From contig NZ_JAJLPA010000001.1 in the NCBI RefSeq assembly GCF_025548555.1, positions 124,001 to 188,000 on the forward strand: 64,000 bases of DNA. The letters are read 5' to 3'. A program made the translations under genes and the position numbers. Source of the DNA: Sphingomonas sp. A2-49 (GTDB lineage: Bacteria > Pseudomonadota > Alphaproteobacteria > Sphingomonadales > Sphingomonadaceae). This document shows, piece by piece, positions 53,646 through 62,089 of the stretch (the first letter of the stretch is position 1; each line of letters opens with the position of its first letter). The notes under the pieces are model-generated. The model had not been told where the DNA came from. It did no database searches and worked only from the letters and a program-made list of their open reading frames with translations.

Positions 53646-54259
53646 CGATCGATGCGGGCGGCCATATGCTGCTCTATCTGCTGTTGCTGGTCCTGCCGGT
53701 CTCGGCGCTGATCGCGCGGCGCGTGCCGATCCTGCGTGTGCTGCTGTCGCTGGCAAGCTGGGCGGTGCTCGCCGGTATCCTGCTGGTCGTCTTCAGCCAG
53801 CGTGAGAAGTTCGACCCGTATCTGCAACGCGTGGCGAGTCTGTTGAAGCTCGACGACCAGAATGTGGTCGGCCGGGAAACGCACATCCGCATGTCGCCCG
53901 ACGGCCATTTCTGGGCACGGGTGACGATCGATGGCGTCGCGCGGCGCATGCTGGTCGACAGCGGCGCGACGGTCACCGCCTTGTCGACCGCGACCGCCCA
54001 GGCCGCTGCGCTCGATGTCCGCAAGAGCGTCTTTCCGATGATTCTCAACACTGCAAACGGCCGGATCAGTGCGCAGACCGCGGAAGTCCGCGAGCTGCGA
54101 CTGGGCGACATCGCCGCACGCGATCTGCCCGTCGTGGTATCGCCGGCGTTCGGCGACACCGACGTGCTGGGGATGAATTTCCTGTCGAAGCTGAAGTCGT
54201 GGCGGGTCGAAGGCAATATCCTGATCCTCGAACCGCACCGACCACAGGATTTTACATAA
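53642..54259 (+). CDS. membrane-anchored retropepsin-like aspartic protease (clan AA, TIGR02281 type)
   Basis: This 205-residue protein starts with two hydrophobic helices (about residues 9-25 and 31-51) and ends in a single retropepsin-like domain (about 85-200). The catalytic DSGAT is at 106-110, in MLVDSGATVTALS, followed by the hydrophobic-Gly pair in VLGMNFLSK. As with retroviral proteases it must dimerise to be active. Members of this family are widespread in alphaproteobacteria, with unknown targets. It overlaps the MBL gene by four bases, the last tight link in the run from metG. Confidence 0.9.
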   Translation: MTIDAGGHMLLYLLLLVLPVSALIARRVPILRVLLSLASWAVLAGILLVVFSQREKFDPYLQRVASLLKLDDQNVVGRETHIRMSPDGHFWARVTIDGVARRMLVDSGATVTALSTATAQAAALDVRKSVFPMILNTANGRISAQTAEVRELRLGDIAARDLPVVVSPAFGDTDVLGMNFLSKLKSWRVEGNILILEPHRPQDFT

Positions 54260-54305
54260 TGCCTATTATCGATCTTGCCGTGATCGGTGGAGGGGGCCCT
54301 TTCCG

Positions 54306-55034
54306 ATGATTGAACGGCTTGTGGCGATCATGGCGCGGCTGCGCGATCCGCAGCATGGGTGCGAATGGGATGTCGCCCAGACCTGGGCGACGATCGCGCC
54401 CTATACGATCGAGGAAGCCTATGAGGTCGCCGACGCGATCGAGCGTGGCGATGCGACCGACCTCCGCGACGAGCTCGGCGACCTGCTGCTCCAGGTGGTC
54501 TTCCACAGCCGGATCGCCGAGGAAGCCGGCGCGTTCGCGCTGCCCGACGTGGTCGCCGCGATCAGCGACAAGATGGAACGACGCCACCCGCACATCTTCG
54601 GCGCCGCAGAGCGCAGTCCCGGCTGGGAGGAATTGAAGGCGGCCGAGCGCGCCGGCAAGGACGACGACAGCGCGCTCGCCGGCGTGGCGGCGGGAATGCC
54701 GGCGTTGTTGCGTGCGGTAAAGTTGCAGAAGCGCGCCGCACGCGTCGGTTTCGACTGGCCCGACGCCGGTGGGTCGCTCGCCAAGGTGCACGAGGAGATC
54801 GCCGAGGTGGCCGCCGCTCCGGCCGCGGAGATCGCCGAGGAAATCGGTGACCTGCTGTTCGCGGTGGTGAACTGGGCACGCCACCTGGGCGTCGACCCCG
54901 AAGCGGCGCTGCGGGCCGGCAACGCCAAGTTCGAACGACGCTTTCGCGGCATGGAGCAGATGGCAGGCGCCGGCTTCGCCGCACTGAGCCTCGCCGACAA
55001 GGAAGCGTTGTGGCAGCAGGTTAAGGCGCGTTAA
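54306..55034 (+). CDS. mazG: nucleoside triphosphate pyrophosphohydrolase MazG
   Basis: This 242-residue all-alpha enzyme hydrolyses (d)NTPs to monophosphates and pyrophosphate, keeping noncanonical nucleotides out of nucleic acids. Both MazG repeats are visible: the first with CEWDVAQT and IEEAYEVADAI then DELGDLLLQVVFH (about residues 18-70), the second with VHEEIAEV and EEIGDLLFAVVNWAR (about 165-195). Length is close to E. coli MazG (263). It lies 46 bases after the protease gene and is convergent with hflX, six bases away. Confidence 0.95.
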   Translation: MIERLVAIMARLRDPQHGCEWDVAQTWATIAPYTIEEAYEVADAIERGDATDLRDELGDLLLQVVFHSRIAEEAGAFALPDVVAAISDKMERRHPHIFGAAERSPGWEELKAAERAGKDDDSALAGVAAGMPALLRAVKLQKRAARVGFDWPDAGGSLAKVHEEIAEVAAAPAAEIAEEIGDLLFAVVNWARHLGVDPEAALRAGNAKFERRFRGMEQMAGAGFAALSLADKEALWQQVKAR

Positions 55035-55040
55035 CCCCGG

Positions 55041-56327
55041 TCAGCGTTGCAGGAACCGTTCGTAATCGCGTTCGGCGAGCCGCACTTCATATTGCGTTTC
55101 CAGCCCCTCGCTCGACTGGCCGAGCATCTCGCCGTGCGCGTGCAGCCAGGCCGCACCGGCGCCGTCCTCCGCTGCAAGCGTGATCCAGTATCGACGGTGG
55201 CCGGCGGTCAGCTTCGCCGCGACCTGCCCGATCAACGCATCGACCCCTTCCCCGCCCAGCGCCGACAGCGCGACGACGTCGTCCCGCCGCTCTGCCTCGG
55301 CGAGCACCGCGTCGTGACGGTCGGCGTCGAGCAGGTCGAGCTTGTTCCACGCCTCGAACCGCGGCGTCAGGTCCGATACGCCGATCTCGGTCAGCACCGC
55401 CTCGACGTCGGCCCGCTGCGCCTCTGTATCGGGATGCGCGATGTCGCGGACGTGGACGAGCAGGTCGGCCGACACCACCTCCTCCAGCGTCGCCTTGAAC
55501 GCGGCGACGAGCTGGGTCGGCAGGTCCGACACGAACCCGACGGTGTCGGACAGGATCGCCTTGTCGATTCCCGGCAGCGATACCTGGCGCAGCGTCGGGT
55601 CGAGCGTCGCGAACAACAGGTTTTCCGCCATGACGTGCGCACCGGTCAGCCGGTTGAACAGCGTGGATTTGCCGGCGTTGGTATAGCCGACCAGCGCGAT
55701 CACCGGCCACGGCGCCCGCTGCCGCCGCTCGCGATGCAGGCCGCGGGTCCGACTGACCTGCTCCAGTTCGCGGCGCAGTCGGGCCATGCGGTCGCGGATC
55801 AGCCGGCGATCGGCCTCGATCTGCGTTTCGCCGGGCCCGCCGAGGAAGCCGAAGCCGCCCCGCTGGCGTTCGAGGTGGGTCCAGCTGCGTACCAGCCGTC
55901 CCGCCTGATAATCCAGATGCGCAAGCTCGACCTGCAACCGCCCCTCGGCGGTCGCGGCGCGCTCGCCGAAGATTTCGAGGATCAGCCCGGTACGGTCGAT
56001 CACCTTGGCCTCGAGCGCGGTTTCGAGGTTGCGTTGCTGTACCGGGGTCAGGCTCGCGTCGAAGACGACGAGATCCGCCTCGTTCTGGCGGACCTGCACC
56101 GCGAGCTGTTCCACCTGACCGCTGCCGATCAGCGTCGCCGGCTTGGGCGCGCGCACCCGCACCGCGACCTTGTCGGTGACGACGAGGCCGATCGCGGCGG
56201 CGAGCCCGGCGGCCTCGTCGAGCCGCGCATCGGCGTCGCGATGCGCGTCCCCCTGGTCGGGGAGCACGATCAGCGCACGCCCGCCGCGGGCGAAATCGTC
56301 ACGGTCGCGGTTGAACCCGGTGGTCAT
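55041..56327 (-). CDS. hflX: GTPase HflX
   Basis: This ribosome-associated GTPase has 428 residues. The N-terminal HflX domain (about 20-190, with IGSGQVEQLA and VIDRTGLILEIF) precedes a coiled coil (RRLIRDRMARLRRELEQV) and the G domain: G1 GYTNAGKS, G2 ATLDPT, G3 DTVGFV, G4 NKLD. HflX splits or rescues stalled ribosomes, mainly in stress. It lies three bases after hfq on the same strand, the usual hfq-hflX pair. Confidence 0.96.
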   Translation of the reverse strand: MTTGFNRDRDDFARGGRALIVLPDQGDAHRDADARLDEAAGLAAAIGLVVTDKVAVRVRAPKPATLIGSGQVEQLAVQVRQNEADLVVFDASLTPVQQRNLETALEAKVIDRTGLILEIFGERAATAEGRLQVELAHLDYQAGRLVRSWTHLERQRGGFGFLGGPGETQIEADRRLIRDRMARLRRELEQVSRTRGLHRERRQRAPWPVIALVGYTNAGKSTLFNRLTGAHVMAENLLFATLDPTLRQVSLPGIDKAILSDTVGFVSDLPTQLVAAFKATLEEVVSADLLVHVRDIAHPDTEAQRADVEAVLTEIGVSDLTPRFEAWNKLDLLDADRHDAVLAEAERRDDVVALSALGGEGVDALIGQVAAKLTAGHRRYWITLAAEDGAGAAWLHAHGEMLGQSSEGLETQYEVRLAERDYERFLQR

Positions 56328-56330
56328 CGA

Positions 56331-56816
56331 CTATTCGTCCGTCTCGCCCTCGTCGGCGAGGTTGAGCGCCCGCGCGGGCTGGATCGTCGACACCGCATGC
56401 TTGTAGACCAATTGGGCCATGCCCTCGCGCTGGAGCAGCATGCAGAACAGGTCGAAGCCGGCGATATGGCCCTGAAGCATCACGCCGTTGATGAGGAACA
56501 TCGTCACCGAATCTTCGGACTTACGCACGGCGTTCAGGAATATTTCCTGCAACAACGGCTGCTTGCGCTGCGCTTCGCCGACGGAGTCGACGATCGCGGC
56601 GATATCCATCGGACCCGACGGCATGATCGTCGAGATCGCATGTTTGTAGATCAGCTGCGACTGGCCGTCGCGGCGCAGCAGCACCGAGAAATTGTCGAAC
56701 CAGGTAACGATACCCTGAAGCTTGACGCCCTTCACGAGGAACATCGTCACCGGCGTCTTCGAGCGACGCAGGGCATTGAGGAACAGGTCCTGGAGGGACC
56801 CTTGCTTGTCGGCCAT
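56331..56816 (-). CDS. hfq: RNA chaperone Hfq, tandem two-domain form
   Basis: This 161-residue protein is two full Hfq units in one chain. Unit 1 spans about residues 5-68: [29 protein letters not shown], and IYKHAISTI. Unit 2 spans about 86-149: [29 protein letters not shown], and [10 protein letters not shown] 17-residue linker joins them. Ordinary Hfq is a hexamer of about 70-100 residue chains, so this should form a ring from three chains. The units differ at functional spots: proximal QD becomes QE, and rim RR (17-18) becomes RK (98-99) in unit 2; distal KLQG becomes MLQG. Hfq pairs small RNAs with mRNAs. It follows ntrX by 122 bases, which may hold its own promoter, and is followed by hflX. 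Confidence 0.96.
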
Positions 56817-56938
56817 GAGGAGCCTTTCGTATTATTGGCGAGCCGTTAGCCCGCTATCGCGCCGTTTCCCGGCGTCGGATGCCGGTCGGTTCGACCAGCC
56901 ACATGCATCTATGAACGATGATGCCCCGCGTCCAGCGA

Positions 56939-58315
56939 TCAATCCTCGCGCATGTCGGTGATGCCGAGCAACTTGAGCTTCCGGTGCAGCGCCGATCGCT
57001 CCATCCCGATGAAGCTCGCGGTGCGGCTGATGTTGCCCGAAAAGCGGCGGATCTGGACGCGCAGATATTCGCGCTCGAACGTCTCGCGCGCCTCGCGGAG
57101 CGGTGCGCCCATGATCGCGCCGCCGCCACCGCCGCCGATATCGCCCTGATCGCCCAGCACTTCCGCGGGCAGCAGGTCGAGGTCGATCCGACCGATGCGG
57201 TCGCCCGGCGCGAGGATGATCGTGCGCTCGACCACGTTGCGCAGCTGGCGGACGTTGCCCGGCCAGTCGTAGGACTGGAGCGCGACCATGGCGTCCGACG
57301 CGATCTCCGGCGTCGGGACGCGGCGGTCGGCGGCATAATGCGCGATGAAATGCTCGACCAGCGCGGGAATGTCCTCCCGCCGCTCGGCCAGTGCCGGGAT
57401 CGGCACCGGCACGACGTTGAGCCGGTAATAGAGGTCCTCGCGAAAGCGCCCCTCGGTGATCTCATGCGCGAGGTCGCGCGAGGTGGCGGACACGACGCGG
57501 ACGTCGACCTTGACGATGCGGGTGCCGCCGATGCGGCTGAAGCTCTGGTCGGTCAGCACGCGCAGGATCCGAGCCTGCGTCGCGATCGGCATGTCGGCGA
57601 TCTCGTCGAGGAACAGCGTGCCGCCATGCGCCTGTTCGAGCAGTCCCGGGCGGACGAGGTCGCCCCCCTCCTCCACCCCGAACAGTTCCTCCTCGACCCG
57701 TTCGGGCGTCATCCGCGCCGCGCTGACGATGACGAACGGCGCCTGGACGCGGTTGCTCCATCCGTGCAGCAGCCGCGCGGCGACCTCCTTGCCGACGCCG
57801 GCGGGGCCCATGATGAGCACCCGGCTGCCGGTCGCCGCGACGCGCTTCAGCGTCGCACGAACGGCGTTGATCGCGCCCGAACTGCCCGTCAGGTCGCTTT
57901 CGCGACCTGCGGAGACGCGCAGGCTCGCGACTTCCCGACGCAACCGTTCGGTTTCGGTCGCGCGGGCGACCAGCAGCAGCAGGCGCTCCGCCTCGAACGG
58001 CTTTTCGATAAAGTCGCTCGCACCGCGCCGGATCGCGGCGACCGCGGTGTCGAGGTTGCCGTGGCCCGAGATGACCAGCACCGGGATCGACGGATCGCGT
58101 CGCTTGATCTCGTCGAGCAGTTCCAGCCCGTCGAGCCGCGATCCCTGCAACCAGACGTCGAGCAGCACCAGCGACGGCCGCCGCGTGGCGATCGCCTCCA
58201 GCGTCGCGTCGCTGTCGGCCGCGGTCCGGGTTTCGTAGCCTTCGTCCTCAAGGACGCCGGCGACCAGTTCCCGGATATCGTGTTCGTCGTCGACGACGAG
58301 GATGTCGAGCGCCAT
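56939..58315 (-). CDS. ntrX: NtrX-type response regulator lacking the GAFTGA loop
   Basis: This is a 458-residue AAA+ response regulator. The receiver domain has D10-E11, phosphoacceptor D53 in LLDVWL and K105 in EKPF. The AAA+ domain has Walker A GPAGVGKE (170-177) and Walker B TLFLDEIAD (233-241), then a Fis-type helix-turn-helix (about 420-455, ISRTASFIGMERSALHRKL). The sigma-54 contact motif GAFTGA is missing: where NtrC at 60674-62089 has GHERGAFTGA, this protein has GVEEGGDLVRPG. It therefore probably acts as a sigma-70 type regulator or repressor. It pairs with ntrY three bases upstream. Confidence 0.95.
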   Translation of the reverse strand: MALDILVVDDEHDIRELVAGVLEDEGYETRTAADSDATLEAIATRRPSLVLLDVWLQGSRLDGLELLDEIKRRDPSIPVLVISGHGNLDTAVAAIRRGASDFIEKPFEAERLLLLVARATETERLRREVASLRVSAGRESDLTGSSGAINAVRATLKRVAATGSRVLIMGPAGVGKEVAARLLHGWSNRVQAPFVIVSAARMTPERVEEELFGVEEGGDLVRPGLLEQAHGGTLFLDEIADMPIATQARILRVLTDQSFSRIGGTRIVKVDVRVVSATSRDLAHEITEGRFREDLYYRLNVVPVPIPALAERREDIPALVEHFIAHYAADRRVPTPEIASDAMVALQSYDWPGNVRQLRNVVERTIILAPGDRIGRIDLDLLPAEVLGDQGDIGGGGGGAIMGAPLREARETFEREYLRVQIRRFSGNISRTASFIGMERSALHRKLKLLGITDMRED

Positions 58316-58318
58316 ATG

Positions 58319-60544
58319 CTAATTCCGATTGCGTGTGAGTGCGGCGAGCTGGTCGTCACCGACGGGTTCGGGTGCGCTGGCACCCTGATCGAGCGCGGCG
58401 AGGGCATCCGCATCGAAGGCCATGCGGACGACCGTGCCCCCCTTGTCGCGGTCGGCGAAGGTCATGATGCCGTGATGCTCCTCGACGATCTTCTTGACGA
58501 TCGCGAGGCCGAGGCCGGTGCCGCGGGCGCGGGTGGTCATATAGGGCTCGACGATCCGGTCGCGGTCGGGCGGCAGGCCGACGCCGCTATCGGCGACCTC
58601 GACCACCACGGCGCCGTCGTCCGCACGCACGCACATCACCACCGAACCACCGTCTTCGCCTTTCGCCTCGATGGCTTCGACCGCATTCTTGACGATATTC
58701 GTGAATGCCTGGCTCAACTGGCGGCGATCGCATACCAAGGTCGGCGCCGGGACGTCATGGTCGAGTTCGAAGCGAACGCCGGGATGCGCGACCTCGTGCA
58801 GGAACAAGGCCTGGCGGGCGATGTCGACCAAGGATTCCTCGCGGAACACCGGTTTGGGCATCCGCGCGAAGGACGAGAATTCGTCGACCATCCGGCGCAG
58901 GTCGCCGACCTGGCGCACGATCGTCTCGGTCAGCCGCGCGAACGTCGTGTCGTCGGGGTCGATCTTGCTGCCGTAGCGGCGCTGGAGCCGCTCGGCTGCG
59001 AGCTGGATCGGGGTCAGCGGGTTCTTGATCTCGTGCGCGATCCGGCGCGCGACGTCGGACCAGGCGGCGCGGCGCTGGTCGAGCAGCTGCTGCGTGATAT
59101 CGTCGAAGGTCAGGATCGGCCCAGAATCGGTCCGCGCGATCCGCACCGCGAGCGTCCGCGGCTCCCCGCCCCGCGCCACCTGTACGATCGCCTCGCGCTC
59201 GCGCCCGGCGACGAGGTCCGCCAGTTCCGGCGCGACCGCGCCCAACGGTCGCCCGACGAGGCCATCGACGCCGGTACCGATCAGCTCGGTCGCGGACCGG
59301 TTGGCGATCCGCACCGTCCCGTCCTCCGCCACCGCGATGACGCCGGCGGAGACGCCTGCCATGACCGCCTCGATCAGCGCGCGGCGGTTGTCGAGCTGGT
59401 CGTTGGCGGTCACCAGCGCGCTCGTCTGTTCCTGGAGCCGTCCGGTCATCTGGTTGAACGCGTTGGCGAGCGTGCCCACCTCGTCCTTGCGGCGCGGGTC
59501 GGGAACCCGCGCGGTCAGGTCGCCGGTCGCGACCTTGCGCGCGGCGTCGACCAGTTCGGCGACCGGCCGCACCAGCCGGTCCGCGACCGCGAGCGCCGCC
59601 CAGACGGCGATGCCGACGATGAGCAGCGATACCAGCAACAACGCCGCGTTGAACTTGAGTTGCAGTGCACGCGACCGGCTCTGGAGGGCCTGATAGTCGC
59701 GGACGATCGCGTCGCCACGGCGGATCTGGCTGGCGAGCTGAGGATCGAAGATCCGCGCCGAATAGAGATAGGCGCCCTTGCCATAGGATATCGGCACGAC
59801 CGCCCCGATGCGGTCGTCGCTGCGCACGATCACATAGGGCGCGCCCCGATCAAGCGCCTGCTCCATCGCGGGCGAGACGATGTTCTGCAACGGCCGTTCA
59901 TAGGGGTTGAGGACGATCAGCGGATCGCCCTCGCCCTTGCGGATAATCATCGCCTCCGACTGTTCGCGGCGATAGGTCTGGACGAGCAGGAGCTGCTGGA
60001 AATACGGGCTGTCGACCGCATGGCCCTGCAATTCCGCGGACAGATCGCCGCTCATCGCCTGCACCTGCGCGACGACGCGATCGACCTCGCGCTGGTAGTT
60101 CTCGCCGACCAAAGTGCGGGCATTCTCTAGCATGCCGCTGGCGCGGTCGGACGACCAGAATTCGACCCCGATCTGGAACAGGAGCGAGGCGAAGATCGTC
60201 ACCAGCAGCGCCGGTACCGCGGCGATGATCGAGAAGATCGCGACGAGCCGGACGTGCAGCCGTCCCTCGCCGCCCACCGCGGATGCCGCGGCGCGCCGTC
60301 GCGCGATACGGCGGCCGACGAGCATAAGCAGCGCGATGCCGGGCACCAGATTGGCCACCAGCAGCGACGCGATCGTCGGCGGCGACAGGGGCATCTGTGG
60401 CGTGCTGCTTGCCGCGATGACGAAGTAGGTGGCGGTGGCGATCGCGATCGCCAGCGCGAGGACCAGCGCCTCCACCGCGGGCGTTATCCGCAGGAGGCGC
60501 GCCCGGTCGGTCTCATGTAGATCGGGCATCGGGGCCGCGTTCAT
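58319..60544 (-). CDS. ntrY: nitrogen regulation sensor histidine kinase NtrY
   Basis: This is a 741-residue membrane sensor kinase. Three or four N-terminal helices come first (about residues 20-140), then a large extracytoplasmic domain (about 145-295), another helix (about 300-325), a HAMP domain, a PAS domain (near 390-490), and the kinase core with H-box RIAHEIKNPLTP (near 510), N-box IVKNAVEAIE and GTGLGLAIVKKIVEEH. NtrY senses nitrogen or redox status and phosphorylates NtrX. The ATG at 60544 is preferred; 60529 is possible. The 129 bases before it hold an imperfect dyad. Confidence 0.95.
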   Translation of the reverse strand: MNAAPMPDLHETDRARLLRITPAVEALVLALAIAIATATYFVIAASSTPQMPLSPPTIASLLVANLVPGIALLMLVGRRIARRRAAASAVGGEGRLHVRLVAIFSIIAAVPALLVTIFASLLFQIGVEFWSSDRASGMLENARTLVGENYQREVDRVVAQVQAMSGDLSAELQGHAVDSPYFQQLLLVQTYRREQSEAMIIRKGEGDPLIVLNPYERPLQNIVSPAMEQALDRGAPYVIVRSDDRIGAVVPISYGKGAYLYSARIFDPQLASQIRRGDAIVRDYQALQSRSRALQLKFNAALLLVSLLIVGIAVWAALAVADRLVRPVAELVDAARKVATGDLTARVPDPRRKDEVGTLANAFNQMTGRLQEQTSALVTANDQLDNRRALIEAVMAGVSAGVIAVAEDGTVRIANRSATELIGTGVDGLVGRPLGAVAPELADLVAGREREAIVQVARGGEPRTLAVRIARTDSGPILTFDDITQQLLDQRRAAWSDVARRIAHEIKNPLTPIQLAAERLQRRYGSKIDPDDTTFARLTETIVRQVGDLRRMVDEFSSFARMPKPVFREESLVDIARQALFLHEVAHPGVRFELDHDVPAPTLVCDRRQLSQAFTNIVKNAVEAIEAKGEDGGSVVMCVRADDGAVVVEVADSGVGLPPDRDRIVEPYMTTRARGTGLGLAIVKKIVEEHHGIMTFADRDKGGTVVRMAFDADALAALDQGASAPEPVGDDQLAALTRNRN

Positions 60545-60554
60545 CACGGCTCTC

Positions 60555-60575
60555 GTACAACGGGGATTGTTGCAC
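60555..60575. promoter_or_regulatory. imperfect dyad upstream of ntrY
   Basis: GTACAAC and GTTGCAC (one mismatch in seven) flank a 7-base spacer, 11 bases before the ntrY ATG in the 129-base gap after ntrC. It does not match the TGCAC-N5-GGTGCA NtrC site. A separate ntrYX promoter in this gap is plausible. Confidence 0.3.
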
Positions 60576-60673
60576 GGAAACCACATAATTTCGGATTGGC
60601 GATGGTTTGTGGTGACACTGCGGCAGATCGCCTGTGCCGGAATGGGACGGGGCTATTGCAGACGGACCTTAGG

Positions 60674-62085
<1,412 letters not shown>

Positions 62086-62089
<4 letters not shown>

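Follow-up and report, generated by a model that had tools for sequence, protein, structure and literature searches.

A double Hfq of sphingomonads with two electrostatically unequal units that may alternate in a three-chain ring

The window, the whole stretch of 64,000 nucleotides of the Sphingomonas sp. A2-49 genome analysed here, carries an hfq gene within a minus-strand run of the order ntrY-ntrX-hfq-hflX (Table 1). The gene reads from an ATG at 56816, which is preceded by an AAAGG stretch, to a stop that ends at 56331 on the minus strand. A frame that is open on the plus strand and overlaps hfq was rejected as a gene. A scan for promoters and terminators returned a single promoter-like and a single terminator-like match, each on the plus strand opposite hfq, and at Rfam gathering thresholds no match was found in 54000-60700. 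Just upstream of the run the list of open reading frames holds a second response-regulator frame, NtrC-like in look, on the minus strand at 60674-62089.

Table 1. Features of the double hfq locus and its neighbours, in window positions.
Feature	Positions	Strand	Basis
hfq (double Hfq), 161 aa, two Sm units	56331..56816	minus	PF17209 twice; NF010691 290.5 bits vs cut-off 270
Unit A, residues 7-70: resembles ancestral Hfq, with K28, K31 and a full basic rim	56607..56798	minus	PF17209, alignment; 6gwk match
Linker, residues 71-87; short helix at 73-79 in model	56556..56606	minus	dN/dS 0.32
Unit B, residues 88-151: diverged Hfq, N28, M31, L41, Q63, weakened rim (E19, Q47)	56364..56555	minus	PF17209, alignment
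Acidic C-terminal tip, residues 152-161	56334..56363	minus	sequence, tail charge
hflX, 3 bases downstream of hfq	55041..56327	minus	TIGR03156 456.2 bits vs cut-off 216.75
ntrX, 122 bases upstream of hfq	56939..58315	minus	NF051870 746.6 bits vs cut-off 600
Sensor histidine kinase, probably ntrY by position	58319..60586	minus	histidine-kinase matches; 0 of 25 listed matches reach cut-off

Pfam PF17209 matches the 161-residue chain twice, at 105.2 and 89.7 bits against a cut-off of 27, which confirms the claim of an initial annotation, made from the DNA letters and given with no strand, that one chain holds two complete Hfq units. The chain also matches the NCBIfam model NF010691 over its full length (residues 1-161) above the curated cut-off. 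Unit A and unit B of the window share 55% identity, far above chance, and are joined by 17-19 residues according to the boundary chosen. In what follows positions within a unit are given in E. coli numbering, by an offset that agrees with alignments to 1hk9 and 6gwk. All proximal (Q8, F42, Y55, K56, H57) and distal (Q33, Q52, T61) pocket residues are present in both window units. The residues that had been named in chain numbering, Q9-D10 and Q90-E91, R17-R18 and R98-K99, K32 and M113, Y57-K58-H59 and Y138-K139-H140, were all read correctly. The nearest named relatives of the protein, from a search that may omit records very near the window, are in Sphingomonas sp. UBA978 (97%) and S. melonis (96%). 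A single-domain hfq elsewhere, the finding that the annotation had named as counting against its reading, was looked for, and there is no further PF17209 match in the 3.93-Mb, 54-contig genome (completeness 100%). The double Hfq is the sole Hfq of this cell.

The double form is a trait of the window's family. In a sample of 396 genomes of the order, 313 belong to this family, with two Hfq matches in 300 of them and a single match in 13; the 83 genomes of other families comprise 76 with one match, 6 with none and 1 with two (the counts 300, 13, 76, 1 and 6 were tallied by hand from the order-sample rows). This last genome, G001, was rejected as a double since its second match is a contig-end fragment, identical to the first from the ATG to the break (L043, L044). 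In all 62 chains read fully (61 fetched plus the window) the two units share a reading frame; the linker measures 17-21 aa in 60 chains and 10 or 12 aa in the other 2. Wider samples of the class (289 genomes, 245 with a match) and the phylum (397 genomes, 336 with a match) gave stop-free two-unit spans in 5 and 20 genomes respectively, all of the window's family, among the matches listed; these are the best 150 or so of each sample, in which doubles are expected at the top, although one that has diverged strongly might have escaped. Four further candidates, G399, G664, G405 and G596, turned out to be single Hfqs with open frames of 92-94 aa in which the match had run beyond the stop codon. Two-piece hits on plasmids such as those of Paracoccus and Sinorhizobium, seen among the 20 listed of 85 records, span about 220-270 bases and were likewise rejected, since in each case the two halves of the query had matched the same single-unit Hfq.

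A few database records deserve separate mention. Sphingomonas-type double hfq genes occur in records titled Microvirga sp. SRT01 (L207, 90% identity) and Bacillus sp. 2B10 (L236, 81%), which are probably mislabelled. An 880-kb record of a plasmid collection, NZ_CP155749.1 of Sphingomonas parapaucimobilis, has a double hfq at 92% identity; this record is possibly a second chromosome, or else a contig assigned to the wrong type. In a viral collection 1 of 56 candidate stretches is an Hfq relative, a 231-base match on the 52-kb contig L273 with 58% identity in its best segment.

The doubles have a single origin in our sample. In a tree of HflX and NtrX, 59 doubles form one clade with an SH-aLRT of 99.5 and the single-unit members of the family lie outside it, so that the character is explained by 1 change, one gain of the double Hfq and no loss in that sample. 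The tree comprised 59 of the 62 doubles (three lacked the larger flanks), 10 single-unit family rows and 19 outgroup rows; short rows, near copies and 10 further outgroup rows were left out, and 19 rows cover less than half of the columns. In a separate tree of the units over 64 columns, A and B each occupy one side of a branch, with support of 91 and 98. Ten of the 13 single-unit family genomes were fetched, and in these HflX lies beside hfq in 9 of 10 and an NtrX match of at least 356 aa is found in 8 of 10. The window's order ntrX-hfq-hflX is thus the gene place of the single-unit family hfq, and as these genomes share the same hfq neighbours the fusion probably arose in place. A methionine at position 24 is found in 52 of 62 A units, 57 of 62 B units and 9 of 10 single units of the family, and the order's other single units have valine there (27 of 28). 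That this methionine is common to A, B and the family's single units is a sign, from sequence comparison, that the duplication would be native rather than imported.

To compare the units we aligned those of the 62 doubles with 64 single units. The alignment omitted loci L001 and L002, which are the window, L019, which is the locus of L033 again, and the fragment L044. It also omitted L009 and L031, which agree with L008 and L029 in frame position and score and are presumed to be near copies; the 62 doubles include the two very diverged chains L049 and L050. The two surface types that had been described in the window's chain persist across the family (62 chains), but only some of the individual differences do so. 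At position 28 all 62 A units have lysine, all 62 B units asparagine, and all 64 single units asparagine. Position 31 is lysine in 60 A units and arginine in 2, methionine in 61 of 62 B units and lysine in 64 of 64 single units. The distal difference at position 31 that had been pointed out (KLQG versus MLQG) holds for the family. The other two do not: at the QD/QE site glutamate stands at position 9 in just 16 of 62 B units, and at the RR/RK site position 17 of unit A is arginine in 18 and lysine in 44 of 62 chains, with lysine in 6 of 62 B units. Among the A, B and single units (of 62, 62 and 64), position 63 is M in 58, Q in 61 and M in 64; position 38 is W in 60, A in 51 and W in 64; position 41 is N in 59, L in 54 and N in 61; and position 47 is R in 61, E in 48 and R in 63. 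K28 and M31 each probably reflect one event, and the 62 chains are not to be counted as 62 independent cases. Two of the three chains of genus g12 that were read, L049 and L050, have strongly diverged units with linkers of 12 and 10 aa and break several of the family patterns, and in unit A of L050 a glutamine replaces the proximal histidine.

Summed as charge, these differences follow a fixed pattern. Over five rim positions the net charge is +5 in all 64 single units and in 61 of 62 A units; in B units it ranges from -2 to +5 with a mean of +0.16, and the basic residues at 17, 19 and 47 are gone from most of them. The window's own unit B has a rim of +2, which is only partly weakened. At the distal loop (positions 28 and 31 together) the charge is +1 in 64 of 64 single units, +2 in 62 of 62 A units and 0 in 62 of 62 B units, so that each chain has a total of +2, that of two single units.

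Unit B is the more variable of the two, with a mean B-B identity of 0.71 versus 0.83 for A-A, and its rim residues vary widely, as would be expected if it were a passive spacer that closes the ring, has no RNA role and owes its differences to relaxed drift. This explanation is unlikely in our view, given what has stayed constant in unit B: Q8, Q52, K56, H57 and T61 are kept in 62 of 62 B units, and N28, M31 and Q63 each occur in no fewer than 61 of 62, a constancy that drift would not produce. Moreover dN/dS among close relatives is 0.034 for unit A and 0.050 for unit B, near that of A, and 0.32 for the linker, in 78 of 1225 pairs (at least 88% identical) from 50 chains, the window and 49 of 80 named loci. 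Judged by these ratios both units are under strong purifying selection, and the value of 0.050 means that unit B is not decaying in these lineages.

Conservation extends to the residues that recognise bases. Q8, L26, G29, L32, Q52, K56 and T61 are invariant in each of A and B (62 of 62), and F25, Q33, F42, Y55 and H57 are kept in at least 60 of 62 of each. Since the base-recognising residues are retained in both units, the data favour unequal rims and distal charge over two base specificities. The initial annotation had suggested that a single ring could hold two classes of RNA in fixed register; in a stronger form of this idea unit A would serve one class and unit B the other. Two persistent surface types accord with such a division, and L41 of unit B (54 of 62), next to the proximal F42, could shift preference there; yet the residues of the A and R pockets, as these are described in the text available of PMC6422490, are nearly the same in both units, and the A-B difference is mainly one of charge. 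Two RNA classes would be less likely still than a passive spacer.

The C-terminal tails add to the asymmetry. The segment behind unit A is a near-neutral linker (mean net charge +0.23, range -3 to +4, n=62), which takes the same place as the acidic tail of single Hfq, whose mean net charge is -3.9 to -4.4 in three single groups (n=63; the count omitted one single-unit tail, that of L037, with 152 aa of read-on). The tail behind unit B has a mean net charge of -5.7, with 2 of 62 tails at 0 or +2, and in 54 of 62 doubles the last five residues hold at least 2 acidic ones. The acidic tip hence stands behind unit B only, not behind A. In Caulobacter Hfq the acidic tip is described as packing onto the basic rim of the neighbouring protomer (PMC6561178), and in models of the E. 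coli protein acidic tips touch R16, R17, R19 and K47 (PMC5606850). If A and B alternated in a ring, a basic A rim would lie beside every B tip.

Hfq rings were part of the training data of AlphaFold2, which gave a single-chain model with a pLDDT of 90.3 and a pTM of 0.86 from 70 aligned doubles, made up of the window plus 69 of 80 named loci. For two units of equal size a pTM of 0.86 indicates that the relative placement of A and B, as read from this single-chain prediction, would be confident. The predicted fold is that of Hfq: in a fold search with the model the 50 matches listed per list were all Hfq entries or complexes, the best with a Z of 10.1 over 71 residues, and model residues 5-77 aligned to 6gwk with an rmsd of 0.8 and a Z of 10.1 (71 aligned). 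The VIA-align rows cover unit A and the fold match hardly bears on unit B. Among 35 matching PDB sequences, the longest of 114 aa, there was no solved double-Hfq structure.

An arrangement of six chains in an A6 ring and a B6 ring tied together by linkers is the least probable of the alternatives, for although the linker, 17-21 aa long in 60 of 62 chains, might physically permit it and each unit alone looks like ordinary Hfq, by simple arithmetic the A6 ring would have a distal-loop charge of +12 and the B6 ring of 0 where a mixed ring totals +6, just as a single-unit ring does, the B tails would face B rims that are mostly without charge, and the predicted pTM of 0.86 suggests that A and B pack within one chain.

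Because the units differ in charge throughout the family, and in a way that evens out within each chain at the distal loop, we consider a ring of three chains in which A and B alternate, with three full and three weakened rims, to be the most likely oligomeric state. Three chains per ring with alternation had been put forward from the window alone, and the idea is plausible in that it fits the complementary charges of the units and the confident single-chain model (pTM 0.86). The interpretation offered by the annotation as a whole is partly supported. Taken together, an origin by fusion in place and an alternating three-chain ring with unequal rims seem to us a probable account of the double Hfq. 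According to this account hfq would have been duplicated in tandem and fused in place at the root of a single large clade within the window's family. Three chains would close one pseudo-hexameric ring in the strict order A-B-A-B-A-B. Unit A would supply the basic rim for sRNA-mRNA pairing and the extra positive charge of the distal loop; unit B would retain the uridine and A-R-N base pockets, with a weakened rim and no distal-loop charge, and bear the acidic tail. Each of the three tails may dock on an adjacent basic A rim. In this way three tips would be matched by three basic rims, which preserves the one-to-one balance of ordinary Hfq, and the distal-loop charge of the ring would still add up to six but lie on alternate subunits. 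Such a ring would have fewer pairing sites than one of six full rims.

How much the weakened rim matters may be judged from E. coli mutants. In the available text of a preprint (PMC12262471) hardly any sRNA-mRNA chimeras were captured with the rim mutant R16A and almost fourfold fewer with the distal mutant K31A, and both kept intermediate RpoS levels. These effects suggest that the residues lost from unit B are of a kind that matters for pairing. As both mutants keep partial regulatory function, the effect of the weakened B rim could also be small.

The double Hfq, and the idea of a three-chain ring, are already in print, and the window adds one member. Yang et al. 2010 described the Hfq of Zymomonas mobilis (ZMO0347) as a single chain with two Sm-like domains, like the double Hfq here, found the same in six other Sphingomonadales, asked whether three proteins suffice for a ring and reported stress phenotypes of the hfq mutant (PMC2877685). 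The remark in the annotation that double Hfq had been noted in sphingomonads was therefore accurate. That study differs from ours in resting on a comparison of domains and predicted sites and on mutant phenotypes; unit-by-unit charge, origin and structure were not seen in its available text. N. aromaticivorans is listed with two hfq-like copies in PMC3474761, which we infer to be one double gene. Later papers on Z. mobilis (PMC9797736, PMC5770649) cover expression and phenotype, and the ring make-up of double Hfq is not taken up in their available text. In the open-licence literature available, which was not searched for charge asymmetry as such, nothing was found on the charge asymmetry, single origin or structure of double Hfq. 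As far as the literature found shows, three features of the asymmetry appear to be new: its extent over the whole family, its electrostatic nature and its balance within each chain at the distal loop. Among single Hfqs that of Caulobacter crescentus (6gwk, PMC6561178) shares 69% identity with unit A over 71 residues, a basic rim and an acidic chain end, but is a single-unit homohexamer with six rims and six tips.

Hfq has mostly been studied as a sixfold-symmetric ring, in which a mutation hits all six positions. Two unequal units per chain make it possible to ask, in a natural system, what number of rims and distal sites a ring requires, and the double Hfq lets mutations be confined to alternate ring positions. 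It is also a traceable case, with one gain and no loss in our sample, of an Sm ring whose once identical subunits are becoming specialised, as those of eukaryotic Sm rings also did. In eukaryotic Sm/Lsm hetero-rings diverged duplicates share one ring of seven members as separate chains. In the double Hfq, by comparison, both units lie in each chain and a pseudo-sixfold ring is expected; the yeast Sm/Lsm rings are summarised in PMC2877685. We are inclined to believe, with rather less assurance than for the account above, that hundreds of sphingomonad species contain a bacterial Sm ring of obligate, specialised, alternating subunits, which would be pseudo-threefold, with three competent and three attenuated rims, a conserved distal total and each tip meeting a basic rim. 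If so, it would be a natural and long-stable counterpart of the half-mutant rings that one might engineer to ask what number of rims is needed.

The N-terminus also varies among the doubles. Such two-unit chains are represented by a curated NCBIfam equivalog of 176 positions, NF010691 (PRK14091, RNA chaperone Hfq), whose match to the window protein runs through all 161 residues but starts at model position 16, the window protein being without the model's N-terminal stretch. Among the 54 fetched doubles with an ATG start (L054-L108; 7 of the 61 fetched doubles were left out of the count as they lack an ATG start), 30, the window protein not among them, have a stretch of 24-57 residues before unit A with a loose TLSARP-like pattern, and the remaining ones have 7-20 residues there. 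The TLSARP-like stretch may be a docking tail.
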